Origin: Opitutia bacterium
GTDB lineage: Bacteria; Verrucomicrobiota; Verrucomicrobiia; Opitutales; Opitutaceae
DNA: 64,000 bases
Direction of reading: 5' to 3'
Assembly: GCA_016187925.1 (NCBI GenBank)
Contig: JACPIS010000026.1
Span: forward strand, 62,001 to 126,000
Under the pieces are notes generated by a model, which did no database searches, was not told the origin of the DNA, and worked only from the letters and a program-made list of their open reading frames with translations. Shown here one piece after another: positions 46,929-55,094 of this stretch. A program made the translations under genes and the position numbers. Numbering within the stretch: position 1 is the stretch's first letter; each line of letters opens with the position of its first letter.

Positions 46929-47936
46929 ATGAAGAAAGTGAAGGTCGCGCAGTTCGGGCTCGGCCCGATCGGACTGGAATCGCTCAAGCTCGCCGCCACC
47001 CTGCCCTGGATCGAGGTGATCGGCGCGGTCGACAAGGACCCGGCCAAGGCCGGACGCCCGCTGACCGAATTGACCGGCCTCGGCTCGCTCGACGGCCTGT
47101 GCGTCTCGCGCGATCTCGAGCAGTTGTTCCGCGAGACGCCGCCCGAGGTGATCCTGCACACGGCATCGTCGAGCGCGGCCACCTCGCTCGCGCAGATGCG
47201 CCCCGCGCTGGAGCTCGGCGTGAACGTGGCCTCGACCTGCGAGGAACTGATTTTCCCGGCGCACAAATCGCCCAAGCTGGCGAAGGAATACGATGCGCTC
47301 TGCCGGCACACCGGCGCGCGCCTGACCGCCACCGGCGTGAATCCCGGCTTCGTGATGGACGTGCTGCCGCTCTGCCTGACCGGCGTCAGCCGCACGGTGG
47401 ACAGCATATATGTAGAGCGCGTCGTGGACGCCGCGACACGCCGCCAGCCGCTGCAGGCCAAGATCGGCAGCGGGCAGGACTCCGAGGAATTCCGCGCGAA
47501 ACTGCAAACCGGCGCCGCGGGCCACGCGGGCCTGTGCGAATCGGTGGCGCTCATCGCGCACGCGCTCGGCTGGGCGCTGGACGAAATCACCGAGGCCGGC
47601 GAACCCGTGGTCGCGCAGCGGGAAGTCCGCACGAAATTTTTTCAGGTGCCGCCCGGCCGGACGACCGGCATCCACCAGCGCGCCATCGGCCGGCGCGGCG
47701 ATGCGGAAAAAATCGTGCTCGATATCCGGATGTACCTCGACGCACCGGAGCCGCACGACCGCATCCTCATCCGGGGACAACCTCCACTCGACGTGCTCGT
47801 GTCAGGCGGCGTGGCGGGCGACGACGCCACCGTCGCGGCACTGATCAACACGGTGCCGCGCCTGCTCGCCGCGCCGCCCGGATTGCACCTGCCGAGCGAT
47901 CTCGCGCTGCCGAAATGGGCCGCGCCGAACGCGTGA
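46929..47936 (+). CDS. DapB/diaminopentanoate-dehydrogenase-like NAD(P)-dependent oxidoreductase
   Basis: A 335-residue protein: KVAQFGLGPIGLESLKLAAT (Rossmann), IEVIGAVDKDPAKAGRPL, EVILHTASSS, then TGVNPGFVMDVLPLCLTGVS and AGLCESVALIAHALGW. This is the dihydrodipicolinate-reductase-like fold, closest in pattern to 2,4-diaminopentanoate dehydrogenase (Ord) rather than true DapB. The substrate is uncertain; a short amino or oxo acid is likely. Starts at ATG 46929. It stands alone upstream of a tRNA cluster. Confidence 0.82.
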   Translation: MKKVKVAQFGLGPIGLESLKLAATLPWIEVIGAVDKDPAKAGRPLTELTGLGSLDGLCVSRDLEQLFRETPPEVILHTASSSAATSLAQMRPALELGVNVASTCEELIFPAHKSPKLAKEYDALCRHTGARLTATGVNPGFVMDVLPLCLTGVSRTVDSIYVERVVDAATRRQPLQAKIGSGQDSEEFRAKLQTGAAGHAGLCESVALIAHALGWALDEITEAGEPVVAQREVRTKFFQVPPGRTTGIHQRAIGRRGDAEKIVLDIRMYLDAPEPHDRILIRGQPPLDVLVSGGVAGDDATVAALINTVPRLLAAPPGLHLPSDLALPKWAAPNA

Positions 47937-48003
47937 GCGGGCGGATTTTTTGCCCGCGCAAAAACCAATTTTCTCCTCTGGCGCGCAGAATCGGGAAAAG
48001 GGG

Positions 48004-48032
48004 TTGACAAGGTCCGGCCAATATCAACTTTT
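48004..48032 (+). promoter_or_regulatory. Possible promoter of the tRNA-Lys/Thr/Gln cluster
   Basis: A perfect TTGACA hexamer lies at 48004-48009, 38 bases before tRNA-Lys. The -10 region is weak (TATCAACTT stretch at 48022-48030), so only the -35 is convincing. Confidence 0.4.
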
Positions 48033-48047
48033 GCCCGTCTTGCTTCC

Positions 48048-48122
<75 letters not shown>

Positions 48123-48171
48123 AGCTTGTGTTGTTTGTCAATTTCTCCGACTCTCATGCGCAGCGCGCCAC

Positions 48172-48246
48172 GCCGGCGTAGCTCAACGGTAGAGCACCTG
48201 TTTTGTAAACAGGCGGTTGCGGGTTCGAATCCAGTCGCCGGCTCCA
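48172..48246 (+). tRNA. tRNA-Thr (anticodon TGT)
   Basis: A 75-nt cloverleaf. Acceptor GCCGGCG/CGCCGGC, anticodon stem CCTGT/ACAGG with loop TTTGTAA, T-loop TTCGAAT, CCA at 48244-48246. Confidence 0.96.
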
Positions 48247-48304
48247 CTTCCCCACGGGGCGGCGCTCATCGCTCATTTCGCGACCTTCGTCGATTTTTTC
48301 CCAC

Positions 48305-48378
48305 TGCCCGATGGTGTAATGGTAGCACGAACGACTCTGACTCGTTCTGTCTAGGTTCGAGTCCTAGTCGGGCAGCCA
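48305..48378 (+). tRNA. tRNA-Gln (anticodon CTG)
   Basis: A 74-nt cloverleaf. Acceptor TGCCCGA/TCGGGCA, anticodon loop CTCTGAC, T-loop TTCGAGT, CCA at 48376-48378. About 240 bases later the Ton cluster begins; the spacer 48379-48620 holds no gene but has a TTGACA at 48412-48417 that could drive it. Confidence 0.96.
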
Positions 48379-48620
48379 CACGTGAAAAAAAATTCCGGCA
48401 CAGAAAGCGCATTGACAGTCGAAAGCAGTTCCAAACAACATTCGCCCCCGTACCAGTTCACCTCTTGCCCCCGCAGTCAAAGCACACACCCACTTTCCCG
48501 GCCGACCTGAATACGAGGCAGGCGCGAGCTTGAATGCTCGGCTGCCCACCGGCCCGTGTCCCGAGATTTTCCCCAACCAACGTCGATTCCGACTAACTTC
48601 AATCCACATCTAATCGCATT

Positions 48621-49286
48621 ATGATCACTGCACACATGCCCCTGGCGTTCCTGATGAATCAGACTCCGATGGAGTTGTTTAAGCACGGCGGCCCCATCAT
48701 GTGGCCGATTCTCCTCGTCTCGTTCCTCATGATCACGGTCGCCATGGAGCGCATCATTTTCATTTTCCGCGAGAACTCCCGCCGCCAGCCCGACGTTGTT
48801 GAAAAAATGCTGGAGAAGGTCGAGGCCCGCGACATCGACGGCGCCGTCGAGCTGGGCAAGAAGTCCAACGATTACGTCGCCCGCATCATGGTTTACGCCC
48901 TCACCCACAAGGAACACTCGCTCGGCAACGCCTTCACCCGCGCCGCCAACCAGGAACTGCAGCGCTTCAGCCAGGGCCTCCCCACGCTCGACACCTGCAT
49001 CACCGCCGCACCGCTGCTCGGCCTCCTCGGCACGGTCACGGGCATGATGAACACCTTCGGCGCCCTCTCGGGCGGTGACATCGCCGCCGCCGCCGGCCAG
49101 ATCACCGGTGGTGTCGCCGAGGCGCTCATCGCCACGGCCTGCGGTCTGATGGTCGCGGTCACCGGCCTGCTGCCCTACAATTATCTCAATGCCCGCCTGG
49201 AGGAAGCCCGCCACGAAGTCGAGGACGCCTCCAATTCGCTCGAGATCATCATCAACAAGAGCGAGAGTGCCCACGCCGCCCACTGA
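48621..49286 (+). CDS. exbB: ExbB/TolQ/MotA-family proton channel protein
   Basis: A 221-residue inner-membrane protein with three helices (about residues 26-48, 122-146, 163-185). APLLGLLGTVTGMMNTFGAL is the MotA/ExbB signature around TM2, and GGVAEALIATACGLMVAV forms TM3 with the conserved Thr/Ala lining. It uses the proton gradient to drive TonB. First gene of exbB-exbD-exbD-tonB. Confidence 0.95.
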   Translation: MITAHMPLAFLMNQTPMELFKHGGPIMWPILLVSFLMITVAMERIIFIFRENSRRQPDVVEKMLEKVEARDIDGAVELGKKSNDYVARIMVYALTHKEHSLGNAFTRAANQELQRFSQGLPTLDTCITAAPLLGLLGTVTGMMNTFGALSGGDIAAAAGQITGGVAEALIATACGLMVAVTGLLPYNYLNARLEEARHEVEDASNSLEIIINKSESAHAAH

Positions 49287-49330
49287 GCGCGCGCTGAGCA
49301 TTCTTTCGGCAACCCTTAATCCCTACTGAT

Positions 49331-49750
49331 ATGCACGGTGGTGGCGGCGGTACAGGCCCCGGCGGCGTCAAGAAGGCACGCATTGAGATCATCCCTCTCA
49401 TTGACGTCATCTTCTTCCTGCTCGCCACGTTCGTCCTGTTCACTCTTTCGCTCAACAAATCGAACGGCCTGAATGTCCAGCTGCCCGTCTCGGCGACCAG
49501 CGAGCCCCGCGATCCTGCCGGCTCGGTCACCATCACGGTCACGGACGAGGGCACCCTCGCGTGGAACAAGGACCTCGTCACCCTCGACGAGTTTCTCCAA
49601 CGCCTGCAGCAATACCGTGTTCAGGAGCCGGAAGGTCGCATCCTGATCAACGGCGACGAGCGCGCGTTCTTCGCGCAGGCGATTTACGTCTTCGACGAGG
49701 CCCGCAAAGCCGGCTTCACGAAGGTCTACATCGAGACTCGCGTCCGCTGA
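49331..49750 (+). CDS. exbD: ExbD-family biopolymer transport protein, copy 1
   Basis: A 139-residue protein. A short glycine-rich N-terminus (MHGGGGGTGPGGVKKAR) precedes one transmembrane helix (IEIIPLIDVIFFLLATFVLF) that carries the essential Asp. The rest is the periplasmic ExbD domain with VTITVTDEGTLAWNKDLVTL. Partner of ExbB and TonB. The polyglycine start is unusual. Confidence 0.93.
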   Translation: MHGGGGGTGPGGVKKARIEIIPLIDVIFFLLATFVLFTLSLNKSNGLNVQLPVSATSEPRDPAGSVTITVTDEGTLAWNKDLVTLDEFLQRLQQYRVQEPEGRILINGDERAFFAQAIYVFDEARKAGFTKVYIETRVR

Positions 49751-49813
49751 CGCCAGCGCACGTCTCTAATAAAACAGTTCCACGCGCGTATAACCGACAA
49801 AGCAGCCACCCTC

Positions 49814-50245
49814 ATGGAAGGCATCAAAATCAAAGTTTCGAATCGCAAGAAGGCGCGCATCGAGATCATCCCGCTCATCGACGTCATTTTCTTTCTGCTG
49901 GCGACCTTTGTGCTGTTCACCCTCTCGCTGAACCGCATCCAGTCGGTGCCGGTCAACCTCCCCGTCGCGGCGCCACCCAGCAACACGCCGCCCAACGAGA
50001 AGGACACCGCCACCATCCAGATTTCCGGCGAAGGCGCCCTGTTCTGGAACCGCGAGCTCATCGACCTCGCCGAGTTGCCCGCCCGTATCGCCCACATGAA
50101 GACCCAGTCCGAGGATCCCCGCATCCTTATCGCCGGTGACGAGAAGGCCCGCTTCGGCGCCACCATCACGGTGCTCGACGAGGTCCGCAAGGCCGGCATC
50201 GAGAAGTTCTCGGTTGAAACCCGCACCCGCCCGACGGGCAAATAA
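49814..50245 (+). CDS. exbD: ExbD-family biopolymer transport protein, copy 2
   Basis: A 143-residue paralogue of copy 1 with the same TM segment (EIIPLIDVIFFLLATFVLFT) and conserved Asp. The periplasmic part has NEKDTATIQISGEGALFWNR. Two different ExbD proteins in one locus could form a hetero-dimer in the ExbB pore. 15 bases before tonB. Confidence 0.93.
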   Translation: MEGIKIKVSNRKKARIEIIPLIDVIFFLLATFVLFTLSLNRIQSVPVNLPVAAPPSNTPPNEKDTATIQISGEGALFWNRELIDLAELPARIAHMKTQSEDPRILIAGDEKARFGATITVLDEVRKAGIEKFSVETRTRPTGK

Positions 50246-50260
50246 TCCGGAGACGCCCCC

Positions 50261-50920
50261 ATGCGCAAAGACCTGATTGTTGGTATCCTCGCCTCCGTGC
50301 TCCTGCACGTGACGTTCCTCTTCGGCTTCAACACCAAGGCCGTCAAGAAGGCCAAGACCGTGGAAGAAAAGCAGGAGCTCATCCAGATGGAGATGCCGCC
50401 CATCGAGCCGGACAAGGAAGAGACCGTCGACGAGCTCCCCGAGGAGCAGGTGACCAACCAGCTCGCCCCGCCCAGCCTCGTAGACCTCCCCTCCGTCGTT
50501 CCCGTCAACGCCTTCACCCAGCCCCTTCAGCCCCCGCCTCCTCCCGGCCTCACCGCCGCCAAGGGCGCCATCTCGATCCCAGTCACCAAGCCGGGCGCGC
50601 AGTTCGGCAAGGGCATGAAGGATCTGTTCGACGTCGCCAACCTCGATCAGGTGCCCCAGGCGCGCGTCCAGCCGGCCCCGGCCTATCCCTTTGAAATGCG
50701 CCGCGCCGGCATCAGCGGCGAGGTCACCATCGGCTTCATCGTCACCAGCTCCGGCGACGTCGTGGAGGCCTACGTGATCAAGTCCAGCCAGCGCGAATTC
50801 GAGGTGCCCGCCCTGCAGGCCGTCCAGAAATGGAAGTTCCGTCCGGGCAAGAAGGGCGGCCGCGCGGTCAATACGAAGATGCAGGTCCCGCTCGTGTTCA
50901 ACCTCAACGAAGACTCCTAA
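50261..50920 (+). CDS. tonB: TonB-family energy transducer
   Basis: A 219-residue protein. An N-terminal anchor (LIVGILASVLLHVTFLFGF) with the His typical of TonB is followed by a Lys/Glu- and Pro-rich periplasmic spacer (PPIEPDKEETVDELPEEQ, QPPPPPGL) and the C-terminal TonB domain (PAYPFEMRRAGISGEVTIGF...ALQAVQKWKFRPGKKGG). It transmits ExbB/ExbD energy to outer-membrane receptors. No receptor gene is nearby. Confidence 0.94.
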   Translation: MRKDLIVGILASVLLHVTFLFGFNTKAVKKAKTVEEKQELIQMEMPPIEPDKEETVDELPEEQVTNQLAPPSLVDLPSVVPVNAFTQPLQPPPPPGLTAAKGAISIPVTKPGAQFGKGMKDLFDVANLDQVPQARVQPAPAYPFEMRRAGISGEVTIGFIVTSSGDVVEAYVIKSSQREFEVPALQAVQKWKFRPGKKGGRAVNTKMQVPLVFNLNEDS

Positions 50921-50926
50921 GCTGCC

Positions 50927-52273
50927 ATGTTGAAGTCATTTTCCTCCCTGCGTCTTGCCCTCGCCGCGCCCGTCGCCGCCCTCGTGCTGGCATCGAGCGC
51001 CGCCGCCCAGGAGCAGCCCGAGCGCACCTACTCTCTCTCGGAATCCGTCAGCGAAGCCCTCGGCTCCGGTTACAAGACCGCCGCCGACGCCAAGAATTAC
51101 GACGCGGCCCTCGCCGTCCTCGACGCCCAACTGGCCAAGGTCGTGGACAAGACCAGCTACGACGCCGCCGTTCTCCTCCAGATCAAGGCCCAAACCCTCC
51201 TGCAGAAGAACGAGTACGGCCGCTCCATCGAGCCGCTCGAGCAGTGCCTGCAGCTCTCCGATACGCACACCCCCGCCTACTTCGACGAGCGCATCTCCCA
51301 GGAGCTTACTTTTTATCTCGCCCAGCTCTACTTCCAGGAGGCCACGACGACCAAGAATGCGACCTTGGTGGTGAGCTATTACGACAAGTCGGAGAAATAC
51401 ATGACCCGCTGGGTCAAGAACACCAAGAAGCCTACGGTGGACGCGCTGCTCTTCTACTCCTCCCTGCTCTATAATCGCGCCATTCAGGACGCCGACCACC
51501 CCGACACGCAGACCATCGCTCGCGCGCTCGAGGTCGTTGACAAGGCCCTCCACCTCACGGCCCATCCGAAGGACAACCTCTACGTCCTGAAGCTCGTCTG
51601 CCTCCAGCAGCTCAACCGCAACAGCGAGGCCACCGAGCTCCTCGAGCTCCTCGTGAAGCAGAAACCCGAGAACAAGACCTACTGGACGCAGCTCGCCGCC
51701 CTCTACCTGAACCAGCAGCAGGACATCCGCGCCATCGTCACCTTCGAGCGCGCTCAAGCCAACGGGTTCATGAACGCCCCGAAGGATAACTTCAACCTCG
51801 TGGGCATCCATTTCAACCTTGGCCAGTATTCCCGCGCCGCCGAGCTGCTGGAAAAGGGCCTCAAGGACGGCTCCATCGACAACGAGCAGAAGAACTGGGA
51901 ACTCCTCGCCTACTCCTACCAGCAGCTCAACCGCGACCTGAAGGCCATCGATGTCCTCAAGGAGGCCACGAAGGTGTTTCCGAAGGACGGGCAGCTCGAA
52001 TACCAGATCGCCCAGAACTACTACGGCCTCGAAAAGCTCCCCGAGGCGCTCACCCATATCCAAGCCTGCGCCACCAAGGGCGGCGGCCACAAGCCCCACC
52101 AAGCCTACCTCTTCCTCGCCTACATCGCGTTCGAACTGAAGAAATTCGATATCGCTCTCGAAGCCGCCAAGAAGGCCATGACCTACCCCGACGGTGCCAA
52201 GGAAGCCAAACGCATGCTCTCCGCCATCGAGGACGCCATCAAGGACCGCGAGGCCAAGATGAACAAAATGTAA
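50927..52273 (+). CDS. Exported TPR-repeat protein of the Ton locus
   Basis: A 448-residue protein with a signal peptide (LRLALAAPVAALVLASSAAAQ) and about eight TPR-like helical pairs, e.g. NYDAALAVLDAQLAKVVDKT, YSRAAELLEKGLKDG and LPEALTHIQACATKGGG. Six bases after tonB, so co-translated. TPR proteins next to TonB are common in Bacteroidota/Verrucomicrobiota-type Ton loci and may assemble the periplasmic part of the machine; this is inference. Confidence 0.85.
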   Translation: MLKSFSSLRLALAAPVAALVLASSAAAQEQPERTYSLSESVSEALGSGYKTAADAKNYDAALAVLDAQLAKVVDKTSYDAAVLLQIKAQTLLQKNEYGRSIEPLEQCLQLSDTHTPAYFDERISQELTFYLAQLYFQEATTTKNATLVVSYYDKSEKYMTRWVKNTKKPTVDALLFYSSLLYNRAIQDADHPDTQTIARALEVVDKALHLTAHPKDNLYVLKLVCLQQLNRNSEATELLELLVKQKPENKTYWTQLAALYLNQQQDIRAIVTFERAQANGFMNAPKDNFNLVGIHFNLGQYSRAAELLEKGLKDGSIDNEQKNWELLAYSYQQLNRDLKAIDVLKEATKVFPKDGQLEYQIAQNYYGLEKLPEALTHIQACATKGGGHKPHQAYLFLAYIAFELKKFDIALEAAKKAMTYPDGAKEAKRMLSAIEDAIKDREAKMNKM

Positions 52274-52294
52274 CCTTTTAGAGATCCCCCGCAC

Positions 52295-52828
52295 ATGAAC
52301 AAAATCTACATCCTAATCCCGCTGGTCGGCGTGCTGGTCTTCGGCGGATTCTACCTCAACTTCACCAAGACCTACGAGGCGCGCATTGCCGAGGCCAAGG
52401 CCAAGGTCGAGGAGGAGCGCAAGCTCAAGGCCAAGCGCGACATCGCTGCCCGCGAGCAAGCCATCAAGGCCGCCGTCGAGGCCCAGGAAAAACGCAAGAA
52501 GGAGCGCGAGGAGAAGGAACTCGTCGAGGAGGGCAAGAAGAAGGCCCGCCTCGAAGCCGAGGATCGCCGCCAGCGTACCTTCGACGAGCGCAAGCGCTTC
52601 CGCGACCAGGTCGACCGCCTCAAGAAGGACATCGACGCCGTGAAGGCCGAGATCGCCAAGCTCACCGACGAAAAGACGCACCATGTCGACGAGCAGTCGT
52701 TCCTGCGTGACTACATCAAGAAGGCCGAGGCCAACGTGAAGACCTATTACGACCTCATCGACAAGATTGCGGCCGCCGACGCCGCCAAGGCCGCCGCCGA
52801 CGCCGCAGCCGCCGCCCGCAAAGGCTAA
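52295..52828 (+). CDS. Membrane-anchored coiled-coil protein, first of a pair
   Basis: A 177-residue protein with one N-terminal transmembrane segment (IYILIPLVGVLVFGGFYL) and then an almost continuous highly charged helix (AEAKAKVEEERKLKAKRD, RFRDQVDRLKKDIDAVKAEI) ending in a TYYDLIDKIAAADAAKAAAD tail. Topology suggests a periplasmic coiled coil reminiscent of TolA domain II. No named family. Immediately downstream of the TPR gene and paralogous to the next gene. Confidence 0.75.
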   Translation: MNKIYILIPLVGVLVFGGFYLNFTKTYEARIAEAKAKVEEERKLKAKRDIAAREQAIKAAVEAQEKRKKEREEKELVEEGKKKARLEAEDRRQRTFDERKRFRDQVDRLKKDIDAVKAEIAKLTDEKTHHVDEQSFLRDYIKKAEANVKTYYDLIDKIAAADAAKAAADAAAAARKG

Positions 52829-52849
52829 CCCGCACCACCCTCTCGCCAC

Positions 52850-53380
52850 ATGAACAAGTATTACCTCATCGTCCCCGCCGTTCTCCTCGGCACCTTCCTG
52901 TTCTTCTACAACGGTGCCCTGAAAGAGATGGCCGCCAAGGAAGCCACCAAGACGGCCGAGAAGGCCGCCATCAAGGCCGCCGAGGACAAACGCAAGGCCG
53001 AGATCGAGGCCAAGGCCTCCGCGGACGCCAAGCGCCGCCAGGAAGAGCGCGACGCCGAAGAGCGCGCCCGCGCCGAGAAGAAGGAGAAGGACTACCTCGA
53101 CGCCATGAAGAAACTCAAGGACGAGGCCGACAACTACTCCGCCGAGTCGGACAAGCTCGCCAAGGAAGCCGCCGACCTCGACATTCAGCTCGGCTCCCTC
53201 CGCACGCAGAAGGAAAAGTCCACCCGTGAGGTCTTCGAACTGGCCAAGCAGGTCGAGCTCGCGAAGGTCAGCCGCCGCAACGCCGAAATCGAGATCCAGC
53301 GCATGGTCGAGATGCTCGGCACCAAGGCGGGTGCCAGCACCCTCGCGACCATCCCTCCTCCCCCAGCTCCCAAAAACTGA
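52850..53380 (+). CDS. Membrane-anchored coiled-coil protein, second of a pair
   Basis: A 176-residue paralogue of the previous gene: N-terminal anchor (YYLIVPAVLLGTFLFFYNG), a charged Ala/Lys/Glu helix (AEKAAIKAAEDKRKAEIEAK), a heptad-like segment (LDIQLGSLRTQKEKSTREVF) and a Pro-rich C-terminus (IPPPPAPKN). Last gene before a strong terminator, so the whole exbB-to-here run is one transcription unit. Confidence 0.75.
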   Translation: MNKYYLIVPAVLLGTFLFFYNGALKEMAAKEATKTAEKAAIKAAEDKRKAEIEAKASADAKRRQEERDAEERARAEKKEKDYLDAMKKLKDEADNYSAESDKLAKEAADLDIQLGSLRTQKEKSTREVFELAKQVELAKVSRRNAEIEIQRMVEMLGTKAGASTLATIPPPPAPKN

Positions 53381-53402
53381 GCGAGGACCGGAATCCTCCC
53401 CG

Positions 53403-53430
53403 AGCCGCGTCATCCGACGCGGCTTTTTTC
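53403..53430 (+). terminator. Rho-independent terminator of the Ton locus
   Basis: Stem AGCCGCGTC 53403-53411 with GACGCGGCT 53416-53424, loop ATCC, then six T. It closes the exbB-to-coiled-coil operon. Confidence 0.92.
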
Positions 53431-53544
53431 TTGCCCAAACCCGCGCGCCAAAACGCTTAGCAGGCTCATGAAGATTTTGTTTGCCCTGCCTCCGCGCACA
53501 CCCTTTGTTGGCCCCTCATTCCGGCGCCGAGCCGGTTCTAGGAT

Positions 53545-53621
<77 letters not shown>

Positions 53622-53623
53622 CT

Positions 53624-54466
53624 TCAGACGAGGAACGGATTGAATCTCCGCTCATTGGCCACCGTCGTCAGCGGGCCATGCCCGGGGGCGATCAGCATGT
53701 CGCCGGGCAGCAGTTCGAGCACGCGTCGCGCATGCTTGAGCTGGCGTTGACAGCAGAAATATCCGCCACCCAGCGAACCGGCAAAAATCAGGTCGCCGGA
53801 AATCAGCAAGTTGCCGGGACCGGATTTTCCCGCCAACCCGATCGTGTAGCAATTGTGCTCCGGCGCGTGGCCGGGCGTGTGCAGCGCCGTGATTTTCAAT
53901 CCTGCCACCTCCACGCTCTGCCCCTCGCCCAACCCCCGGCATTGGGGCCAGCGGCCCGTGGGCGGGCCGTAGAAACGGCCCAATTCGGTCTCCCGCAGCA
54001 CGGTCTCCAATCCGCCGATGTGCTCGGCCTCGTAGTGCGTGACAAACACCGCCTCGATCCGCGTGATGGCGGCGGGCCACGCCCGGTGCAGTTCGGCGTG
54101 GCTCGCCCCGGTATCGAAGAGCACGGCGCTGTCCCCGCCGGTCGAGACGAGATAGGCGTTGGCGACGCCGACTCCGAAAGGCATGCGCAGCGGATGCAGC
54201 CGGAACGGCAGGCCGCAGTCCTCGGGAGTGGGATAACGCCCCTGGGCCAGCGCGCACAATCCCACTTCGTTGAGGTGCAGCACCCGGGCCAGCCGGCCGA
54301 GCTCCGCCTGGGTCAGCTCCGAGCGGTAATCGAGGGCATCCTTGATCCGGCCCATCTCCACGTCCGCCAGCGCGGCGATTTTTTCCATGGGCACGCCGAC
54401 GTGCCGGGCGGCCTTTTCGAGCACATCGCCCAGTTCATCCTCGAGTGCGGGCACGGCGGGATTCAT
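53624..54466 (-). CDS. HTH domain fused to a metallo-beta-lactamase-fold hydrolase with altered metal motif
   Basis: A 280-residue protein. Residues 1-80 (ALEDELGDVLEKAARHVGVP...MEKIAALADVEMGRIKDALD) look like a XRE-type helix-turn-helix region. Residues about 95-280 form a glyoxalase-II-like MBL fold: FDTGASHAELH, THYEAEHIGG, LHTPGHAPEHNCYTIG, LISGDLIFAGS and APGHGPLTTV. The usual HxHxDH metal motif is HYEAEH (144-149): the second His and the Asp are both Glu. The remaining His and Asp ligands are kept. It may bind a different metal, or use the fold for sensing. Start ATG 54464-54466. Confidence 0.82.
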   Translation of the reverse strand: MNPAVPALEDELGDVLEKAARHVGVPMEKIAALADVEMGRIKDALDYRSELTQAELGRLARVLHLNEVGLCALAQGRYPTPEDCGLPFRLHPLRMPFGVGVANAYLVSTGGDSAVLFDTGASHAELHRAWPAAITRIEAVFVTHYEAEHIGGLETVLRETELGRFYGPPTGRWPQCRGLGEGQSVEVAGLKITALHTPGHAPEHNCYTIGLAGKSGPGNLLISGDLIFAGSLGGGYFCCQRQLKHARRVLELLPGDMLIAPGHGPLTTVANERRFNPFLV

Positions 54467-54478
54467 GGCGGAAACGAT

Positions 54479-54499
54479 GGAAAATGAATTCCATTTTCC
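54479..54499. promoter_or_regulatory. Palindrome in the divergent MBL/pyrE promoter region
   Basis: GGAAAATG (54479-54486) and CATTTTCC (54492-54499) are perfect 8-bp reverse-complement arms around AATTC. It lies in the 58-base interval between the divergent starts and is a candidate operator, perhaps for the HTH protein itself. An in-frame ATG for pyrE at 54477 would fall beside it. Confidence 0.5.
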
Positions 54500-54524
54500 C
54501 GGTGAATGCCACACGTTTCGCGGC

Positions 54525-55094
54525 ATGGATGCCGTCCAGCAAGAAGTCACCGACATTTTCACGCGCACCAAGGCCCTGTTGCAGGGGCATTTCGTGCTCC
54601 GCTCCGGATTGCACAGCGGGCATTTCTTCCAGTGCGCCCAAGTCTGCCAATACATGCCCGAGGTGGAGCGCCTCGGCACGCTGCTCATGGGCCGGCTCGC
54701 CGGGCTGAAATACACCACCGTGCTGGCGCCAGCCATGGGCGGTCTGGTCATCGGCCAGGAAGTCGCCCGGCAGTCGAAATGCCGCTTCATTTTCGCCGAA
54801 AAGGAAAACAACTCCCTCGTCCTGCGCCGCGGCTTCACGTTCGCGCCCGGCGAGAAGGTGCTGGTGGTCGAGGATGTCATCACGCGCGGCGGCCGCGTGC
54901 AGGAGTGCCTTGACATCGTCGCCCGGGGTGGCGGCACCGCCGTCGCGGTGGCCGTGCTGGTCGACCGCAACCAGGGTCAGGCCAAGTTCAGTGTCCCCAC
55001 CTGCTCGCTGCTCGAAATGAGCTACCCGACCTACCCGGCAGACCAACTGCCCCCGGAGCTGGCCAAACTCCCGGCGAGCAAGCCCGGCAGCTGA
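54525..55094 (+). CDS. pyrE: Orotate phosphoribosyltransferase
   Basis: A 189-residue PRTase that makes OMP from orotate and PRPP in pyrimidine synthesis. The PRPP-binding motif is VLVVEDVITRGGRVQEC; LAPAMGGLVIGQEVAR and FIFAEKENNSLVLRRGF are typical OPRT segments. The frame is open upstream; ATG 54525 (MDAVQQEVTD) fits the family's start, ATG 54477 would add 16 residues. prs, which makes its substrate PRPP, is nearby on the other strand. Confidence 0.92.
   Translation: MDAVQQEVTDIFTRTKALLQGHFVLRSGLHSGHFFQCAQVCQYMPEVERLGTLLMGRLAGLKYTTVLAPAMGGLVIGQEVARQSKCRFIFAEKENNSLVLRRGFTFAPGEKVLVVEDVITRGGRVQECLDIVARGGGTAVAVAVLVDRNQGQAKFSVPTCSLLEMSYPTYPADQLPPELAKLPASKPGS

Follow-up and report, generated by a model that had tools for sequence, protein, structure and literature searches.

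A family-wide seven-gene Ton cassette with a pair of anchored coiled-coil proteins in Opitutaceae

We analyzed a 64,000-nucleotide stretch from an Opitutia bacterium of the family Opitutaceae (assembly GCA_016187925.1, contig JACPIS010000026.1, positions 62,001 to 126,000; hereafter the window), in which seven open reading frames (ORFs), all on the + strand, occupy positions 48621-53380, as a preliminary description had placed them. They encode ExbB, two ExbD proteins, TonB, a tetratricopeptide repeat (TPR) protein, and two anchored coiled-coil proteins, here called CC1 and CC2. This cassette is a real, family-wide variant of an extended Ton system and not a TolA system. By analogy with the Ttp-type (TonB2) systems of Vibrio, it is probably an extended, Ttp-like Ton system in which the coiled-coil pair would take the role of the DUF3450 and TtpC proteins, to which it is unrelated. 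A literature search of non-subscription papers, preprints excluded, returned no description of the seven-gene cassette; a study of an alginate degrader lists Ton genes (PMC13274419). The features are given below, with lengths in amino acids (aa).

48621..49286, + strand: exbB, proton-channel subunit, 221 aa; Pfam MotA_ExbB 5.3e-28; start possibly Met17
49331..49750, + strand: exbD1, 139 aa; Pfam ExbD 2.7e-25
49814..50245, + strand: exbD2, 143 aa, paralogue of exbD1; Pfam ExbD 2e-25
50261..50920, + strand: tonB, force transducer, 219 aa; Pfam TonB_C 4.1e-20, whole profile covered
50927..52273, + strand: TPR protein, TtpD-like, 448 aa; Pfam TPR families, best 1.6e-13
52295..52828, + strand: CC1, long charged coiled coil behind an N-terminal anchor, 177 aa; no curated family
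52850..53380, + strand: CC2, paralogue of CC1, 176 aa; no curated family
53402..53425, + strand: intrinsic-terminator-like hairpin, 10-pair stem and T tail, ~21 nucleotides (nt) 3' of CC2

Conservation of the unit and its motor

The proposal that the seven genes form a conserved unit was borne out by comparison across genomes. We scanned named genomes with the TPR profile, a query that favours TPR-bearing loci and of which the CC-profile searches are independent, and recovered 58 loci, 57 of them verrucomicrobial (counting L169, titled 'Acidobacteria') and one from a Natronospirales metagenome-assembled genome (L208). With neighbouring repeats of one gene merged and segments below 35 bits dropped, all seven genes stood in order in 50 of the 57, and the other seven (L157, L169, L173, L175, L183, L195, and L205) end at a contig edge. 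A scrambled order in L194, L202, and L204 proved to be an artefact of over-extended ORF starts, which was gone when matched segments were used. The order exbB-exbD-exbD-tonB-TPR-CC-CC was also found in 12 of 14 annotated stretches, from 11 further genomes; one of the 14 (L081) is a Ttp-type locus. L079 has an additional CC1 copy in its cassette, L080 is divergent, its scores separating neither ExbD1 from ExbD2 nor CC1 from CC2 clearly, and an isolated weak CC1-like match in L082 (genome G018) was not counted as a cassette.

Single-protein searches covered 132 genomes of the order, and the TPR protein, CC1, and CC2 occurred together in 12 of these, namely ten of the window's family plus G020 and G105. 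Across 387 genomes of the phylum, the CC1 and CC2 profiles each matched the same 33 at 1e-5, comprising 32 of the 36 Opitutaceae and one of the 351 others (G020), and in all 33 the two genes were adjacent, as read from the listings; G105, which may not have been part of the 387-genome sample, is not among these 33. Given that the G020 cassette (L074), in a genome of another family, nests within the tree of the window's family, its sequence suggests acquisition by transfer as one block.

Median intergenic gaps from exbB to CC2 were 48, 47, 18, 13, 24, and 21 nt (n = 51, 35, 53, 13, 54, and 54 loci), and three TPR-CC1 gaps of 574-589 nt correspond to the length of one additional CC1 copy. The coiled-coil genes thus do not lie away from exbBD and tonB, as both the 24-nt median between TPR and CC1 and the adjacency of CC1 and CC2 indicate. 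The single terminator that had been described at the end of the unit was recovered as the hairpin at 53402-53425, with no terminator-like site on the + strand between cassette genes in the same scan; among relatives, such hairpins lie 3' of CC2 in 29 of 53, compared with 13 of 312 internal stops. A scan for sigma-70-like promoters listed none at all in 47000-55000, where shuffles expect 1.1, and therefore does not inform the start of the unit.

The motor genes have the features of a Ton motor: ExbB exceeds the MotA_ExbB cut-off, both ExbD proteins match Pfam ExbD and carry a membrane Asp, and TonB combines the TonB_C domain with an anchor His. Each of these positions is conserved in at least 95% of the sequences compared, namely the ExbB core GLLGTVxGMMxTF (54 sequences), Asp25 of ExbD1 and Asp23 of ExbD2 (55 each), and His16 of TonB (56). 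The reported presence of two different exbD genes was correct. ExbB reached no NCBIfam ExbB/TolQ equivalog cut-off. Met17 of ExbB is conserved at 95%, unlike the 16 residues before it, so exbB may start at 48669. The cassette holds this ExbB as its single channel protein, and a TtpC-type second MotA/ExbB protein with a periplasmic N-terminal part is absent. The TPR protein and CC1/CC2 belong to a conserved unit with exbB, exbD, and tonB, and the idea of an enlarged Ton machine was supported.

Several loci deviated in detail. In L164 (exbD2) and L167 (CC1), both from metagenome bins, one gene is split over two ORFs in an otherwise intact cassette, through sequencing error or decay. Ereboglobus-type loci (L079, L197, L199, and L207) have a third coiled-coil gene, the set consisting of a single CC2 and two CC1-like genes. 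L169, which is titled 'Acidobacteria bacterium' and contains the last three genes, and L190, titled 'Akkermansia muciniphila', are typical cassettes from possibly mislabelled bins.

Genes for tRNA-Lys, tRNA-Thr, and tRNA-Gln lie immediately 5' of the cassette (window 48048-48378), and one for tRNA-Pro immediately 3' (53545-53621). Of the 57 loci, 18 were checked for tRNA genes, and all but L155 and L189 (16 loci) have those for tRNA-Thr and tRNA-Gln ahead of exbB, so the site of the cassette looks old, and a recent mobile island is not supported for the family. Flanking genes did not enlarge the cassette, the best-shared one being an upstream gene present in 18 of 50 other loci.

The coiled-coil pair

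CC1 and CC2 are two protein families without a matched curated model: neither reached a curated cut-off in Pfam or NCBIfam, where sub-cut-off matches were at the coiled-coil level. Their earlier designation as paralogues outside any named family agrees with a direct profile comparison (hhalign 99.2%, E 2e-19, 143 columns), a score that composition may inflate. Both have a short basic N-terminus, an anchor in which Tyr5 and Phe16 are conserved, and then a charged helix of heptad character, with a hydrophobic period of 3.48 residues in both families (power 0.81 for CC1 and 0.35 for CC2, against at most 0.22 in 100 shuffles). The AlphaFold2 model of CC2 is one helix from residue 4 to 162 (159 residues; mean pLDDT, the predicted local distance difference test score, 90). 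At 1.5 Å per residue, this modelled helix would measure ~24 nm, of which ~21 nm would lie outside the membrane, close to the width of a periplasm. A conserved patch near the C-terminus of CC2 (R143, A145, E146, E148, Q150, and R151) is likely a docking surface.

The two proteins had been called TolA-like, which holds for their layout, since TolA likewise has an N-terminal anchor followed by a long charged helix, but not beyond it. Neither has a TolA/TonB C-terminal domain match in Pfam, and no His column is conserved at 95% in their anchors (some His occurs within residues 1-24 in 16 of 56 CC1 and 26 of 55 CC2 sequences), whereas the cassette TonB keeps His16 and the anchor helix of TolA carries a His motif of the SHLS type (PMC12204202). 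Furthermore, they occur as two paralogues next to a TonB of its own, and the NCBIfam TolA model matched CC2 on the helix at 0.04-0.09, below cut-off. The missing conserved anchor His and C-terminal domain rule out CC1 and CC2 as TolA. Homology to DUF3450 was not supported either, with a best hhalign probability of 37% over 64 coiled-coil columns, and searches of PDB sequences with the CC profiles returned keratin, kinesin, ATP synthase b, and others at the coiled-coil level.

Relation to Ttp-type systems and proposed function

In Vibrio, the TonB2 and TonB3 clusters have the gene order TtpB, TtpC, ExbB, ExbD, TonB, TtpD. The tonB2 operon of Vibrio vulnificus begins with ttpB2, encoding a DUF3450 leucine-zipper protein, and ends with ttpD2, encoding a TPR protein; once TonB1 is missing, strains that also lose TtpB2 or TtpD2 can no longer grow or use siderophores through TonB2 (PMC6957404). 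DUF3450 has been described as an appendage of channel subunits of unknown function (PMC12505986). In Vibrio TonB2, then, ExbBD-TonB is already combined with two such accessories, the DUF3450/leucine-zipper protein and the TPR protein, and the preliminary description went too far in suggesting that the present machine could be distinct. The cassette differs from the Vibrio Ttp system in having neither a DUF3450 TtpB nor a TtpC, in having two ExbD proteins, and in having two anchored coiled coils encoded 3' of the TPR gene, for which profile comparison shows no homology to DUF3450. The loci of the Planctomycetota-Verrucomicrobiota-Chlamydiota (PVC) group with the order TolQ-TolR-TolR-TPR-vWA (PMC12204202) likewise combine a single TolQ-like gene with two of the TolR kind and one for a TPR protein, but their transducer is the vWA protein, whereas the cassette has a TonB_C transducer and the added coiled coils.

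Further counterparts are the verrucomicrobial Ttp-type loci (L081, L246, L247, L249, L251, and L252), whose clusters also include paired exbD genes along with one for a TPR protein; these six differ in starting with DUF3450 and TtpC and in having no CC1/CC2. TonB was recognised in L081 and L251 and not in L246, L247, L249, and L252, which come from family genomes without CC1/CC2 and also have no separate exbB. The four of 36 family genomes that have no CC1/CC2 (G328, G393, G412, and G437) carry DUF3450-TtpC-ExbD-ExbD-TPR loci, and the G020, G028, and L208 loci read DUF3450-TtpC-ExbB-ExbD(-ExbD)-TonB-TPR, with a less clearly read version in G126 (L250). DUF3450 was over cut-off in 71 of the 132 genomes of the order versus one of ten of the window's own family (five more of the ten had matches below cut-off), and it had no match at 0.001 in the genome of the window. 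TtpB is related to the N-terminal part of TtpC (93%, over 77 columns located after the coiled coil), so that the Ttp and CC systems each have two related helical parts.

The TPR protein has an N-terminus that resembles a signal peptide, as judged by eye, and helical repeats at 39-447 in its AlphaFold2 model (pLDDT 93). Its profile appears related to TPR proteins of Ttp-type loci in relatives (hhalign 99.6%, 2.7e-24, 343 columns, against six such proteins), a comparison confined to these relatives and to TPR proteins of this kind, TPR proteins being generally alike. Under the cassette TPR profile, the TPR proteins of L208 and L081 scored 154 and 147 bits, respectively. Among 25 distant TPR matches in the 132-genome search, loci were fetched for 18; ten of these adjoin tonB or exbD, and they outscore the other eight (p 0.016). 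A fold search with the TPR model was uninformative, returning among its best 50 rows general TPR superhelices (O-GlcNAc transferase, APC/C) at query TM-scores of 0.26-0.43.

We hypothesize that the ExbB channel, with ExbD1 and ExbD2 as a possible heterodimer, would use the proton gradient to drive TonB, which would pull on the plugs of TonB-dependent outer-membrane receptors and so energize the uptake of their presumed substrates; in line with this, the genome of the window contains 24 receptor plug matches. CC1 and CC2 would be paralogous rods, anchored in the inner membrane and pairing as a coiled coil across the periplasm, where they would keep TonB and the secreted TPR hub in place or steer them, perhaps by docking to both; the pair probably bridges motor, TonB, and TPR protein. 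Their job would be the one that we attribute to TtpB, the protein with DUF3450, and to the periplasmic portion of TtpC in Vibrio-type systems. A bolder version, which we regard as tentative and rather doubtful, is that Opitutaceae rebuilt the extended Ton machine, the DUF3450/TtpC module having been displaced by unrelated, ~20 nm anchored paralogous rods that would serve as a trans-periplasmic stalk (stator) for the ExbB/ExbD1/ExbD2 motor, with the TPR hub at its tip.

Several observations weigh against a Ttp-like system with a periplasmic coiled-coil pair. First, Lys or Arg at residues 2-4 (56 of 56 CC1 and 52 of 55 CC2 sequences) favours an N-terminus inside the cell, but the net charge of CC1 is +1.5 before and +1.05 after the anchor, so charges leave the topology unfixed, and the periplasmic side is likely for the rods rather than proven. 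Second, TPR proteins share a general resemblance, those of the Ttp-type loci L246, L247, L249, and L252 score only 28-38 bits under the cassette profile, that of L251 is unmatched by it at 1e-3, and L027 and L029, two of the eight TPR proteins not beside motor genes, score within or above most motor-linked ones. Third, DUF3450 over cut-off coexists with the CC set in three of the 12 CC genomes (G020, G105, and G126), weaker DUF3450 matches, under the cut-off, occur in another five of the 12, and the avoidance between the two across the 132 genomes was not significant (Fisher p 0.065) and is confounded by kinship. Profile comparison does not show CC1 and CC2 to be homologues of DUF3450, so replacement of one by the other would be an analogy. 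Finally, the genome of the window contains three further ExbB-ExbD sets and 15 TonB_C matches in ~13 frames, cassette tonB included; the cassette is thus one of several Ton-type sets that may serve the receptors. One other set in this genome, ExbB-ExbD-TonB_2 (L243:4239-6259), lies beside thymidylate kinase-like and DNA polymerase III subunit-like genes, as assigned by eye.

Alternative readings and significance

The machine might instead be a Tol-like one for envelope stabilization or division, in which motor, TonB-type protein, TPR protein, and rods would hold the outer membrane at the constriction in a family without a clear TolB. TolB_N was over cut-off in only three of 37 family genomes (22-28 bits) and was not found in the genome of the window, while ExbB, ExbD1, and ExbD2 score higher with NCBIfam TolQ/TolR than with ExbB/ExbD models, all below cut-off; the old, inherited appearance of the locus behind its tRNA genes would also suit such a function. 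However, the transducer has a full TonB_C domain, the cassette contains no TolB or Pal gene (the rest of the genome was not searched for Pal), the ExbB-ExbD-TonB_2 set of the same genome could fill the role, and four family genomes without the cassette carry a Ttp-type locus, all of which makes this function improbable.

It is less likely still that CC1 and CC2 do not span the periplasm but form a cytoplasmic stalk that restrains the ExbBD motor, in the manner of the b/b' pair of F-type ATPases, which is also paralogous and has a short N-terminus, one anchor, and a long helix. In line with this shared layout, the CC1 profile gave, among other coiled-coil matches, one at 1.3e-4 to a subunit b chain of ATP synthase, and CC2 matched at 0.038 a 'multifunctional fusion protein', which we take to be an ATP synthase subunit that includes b. 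Coiled coils commonly produce scores of this size, however (CC2 versus keratin, 8e-4), and both the basic residues at positions 2-4, which favour an inside N-terminus, and the apparently secreted TPR protein speak for the other side of the membrane. A motor like AglRQS/Glt, serving motility on surfaces or the export of polymers, is very unlikely. Such motors combine a TolQ-type protein with a pair of the TolR type and with TonB-like and TPR components. The cassette does have one ExbB and two ExbD, and its TonB matches the GltG and AgmX/PglI C-terminal model below cut-off, but TonB_C is matched above cut-off over the whole profile, and no known gliding gene is among the seven (the rest of the genome was not searched for Glt components).

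A Ttp-like Ton system extended by a coiled-coil pair would bear on a question that is still unsettled, namely what directs TonB through the periplasm from its motor in the inner membrane to the receptors. Two unrelated solutions with like parts (motor, TonB, TPR protein, and two coiled-coil elements) would suggest a shared requirement, and if the displacement in Opitutaceae is true, such a convergent two-coiled-coil scaffold would imply that Ton motors of this kind need a stalk. The cassette also offers a compact genetic handle on this question in the family, given that the loss of two small genes should disable the machine while leaving the motor untouched.

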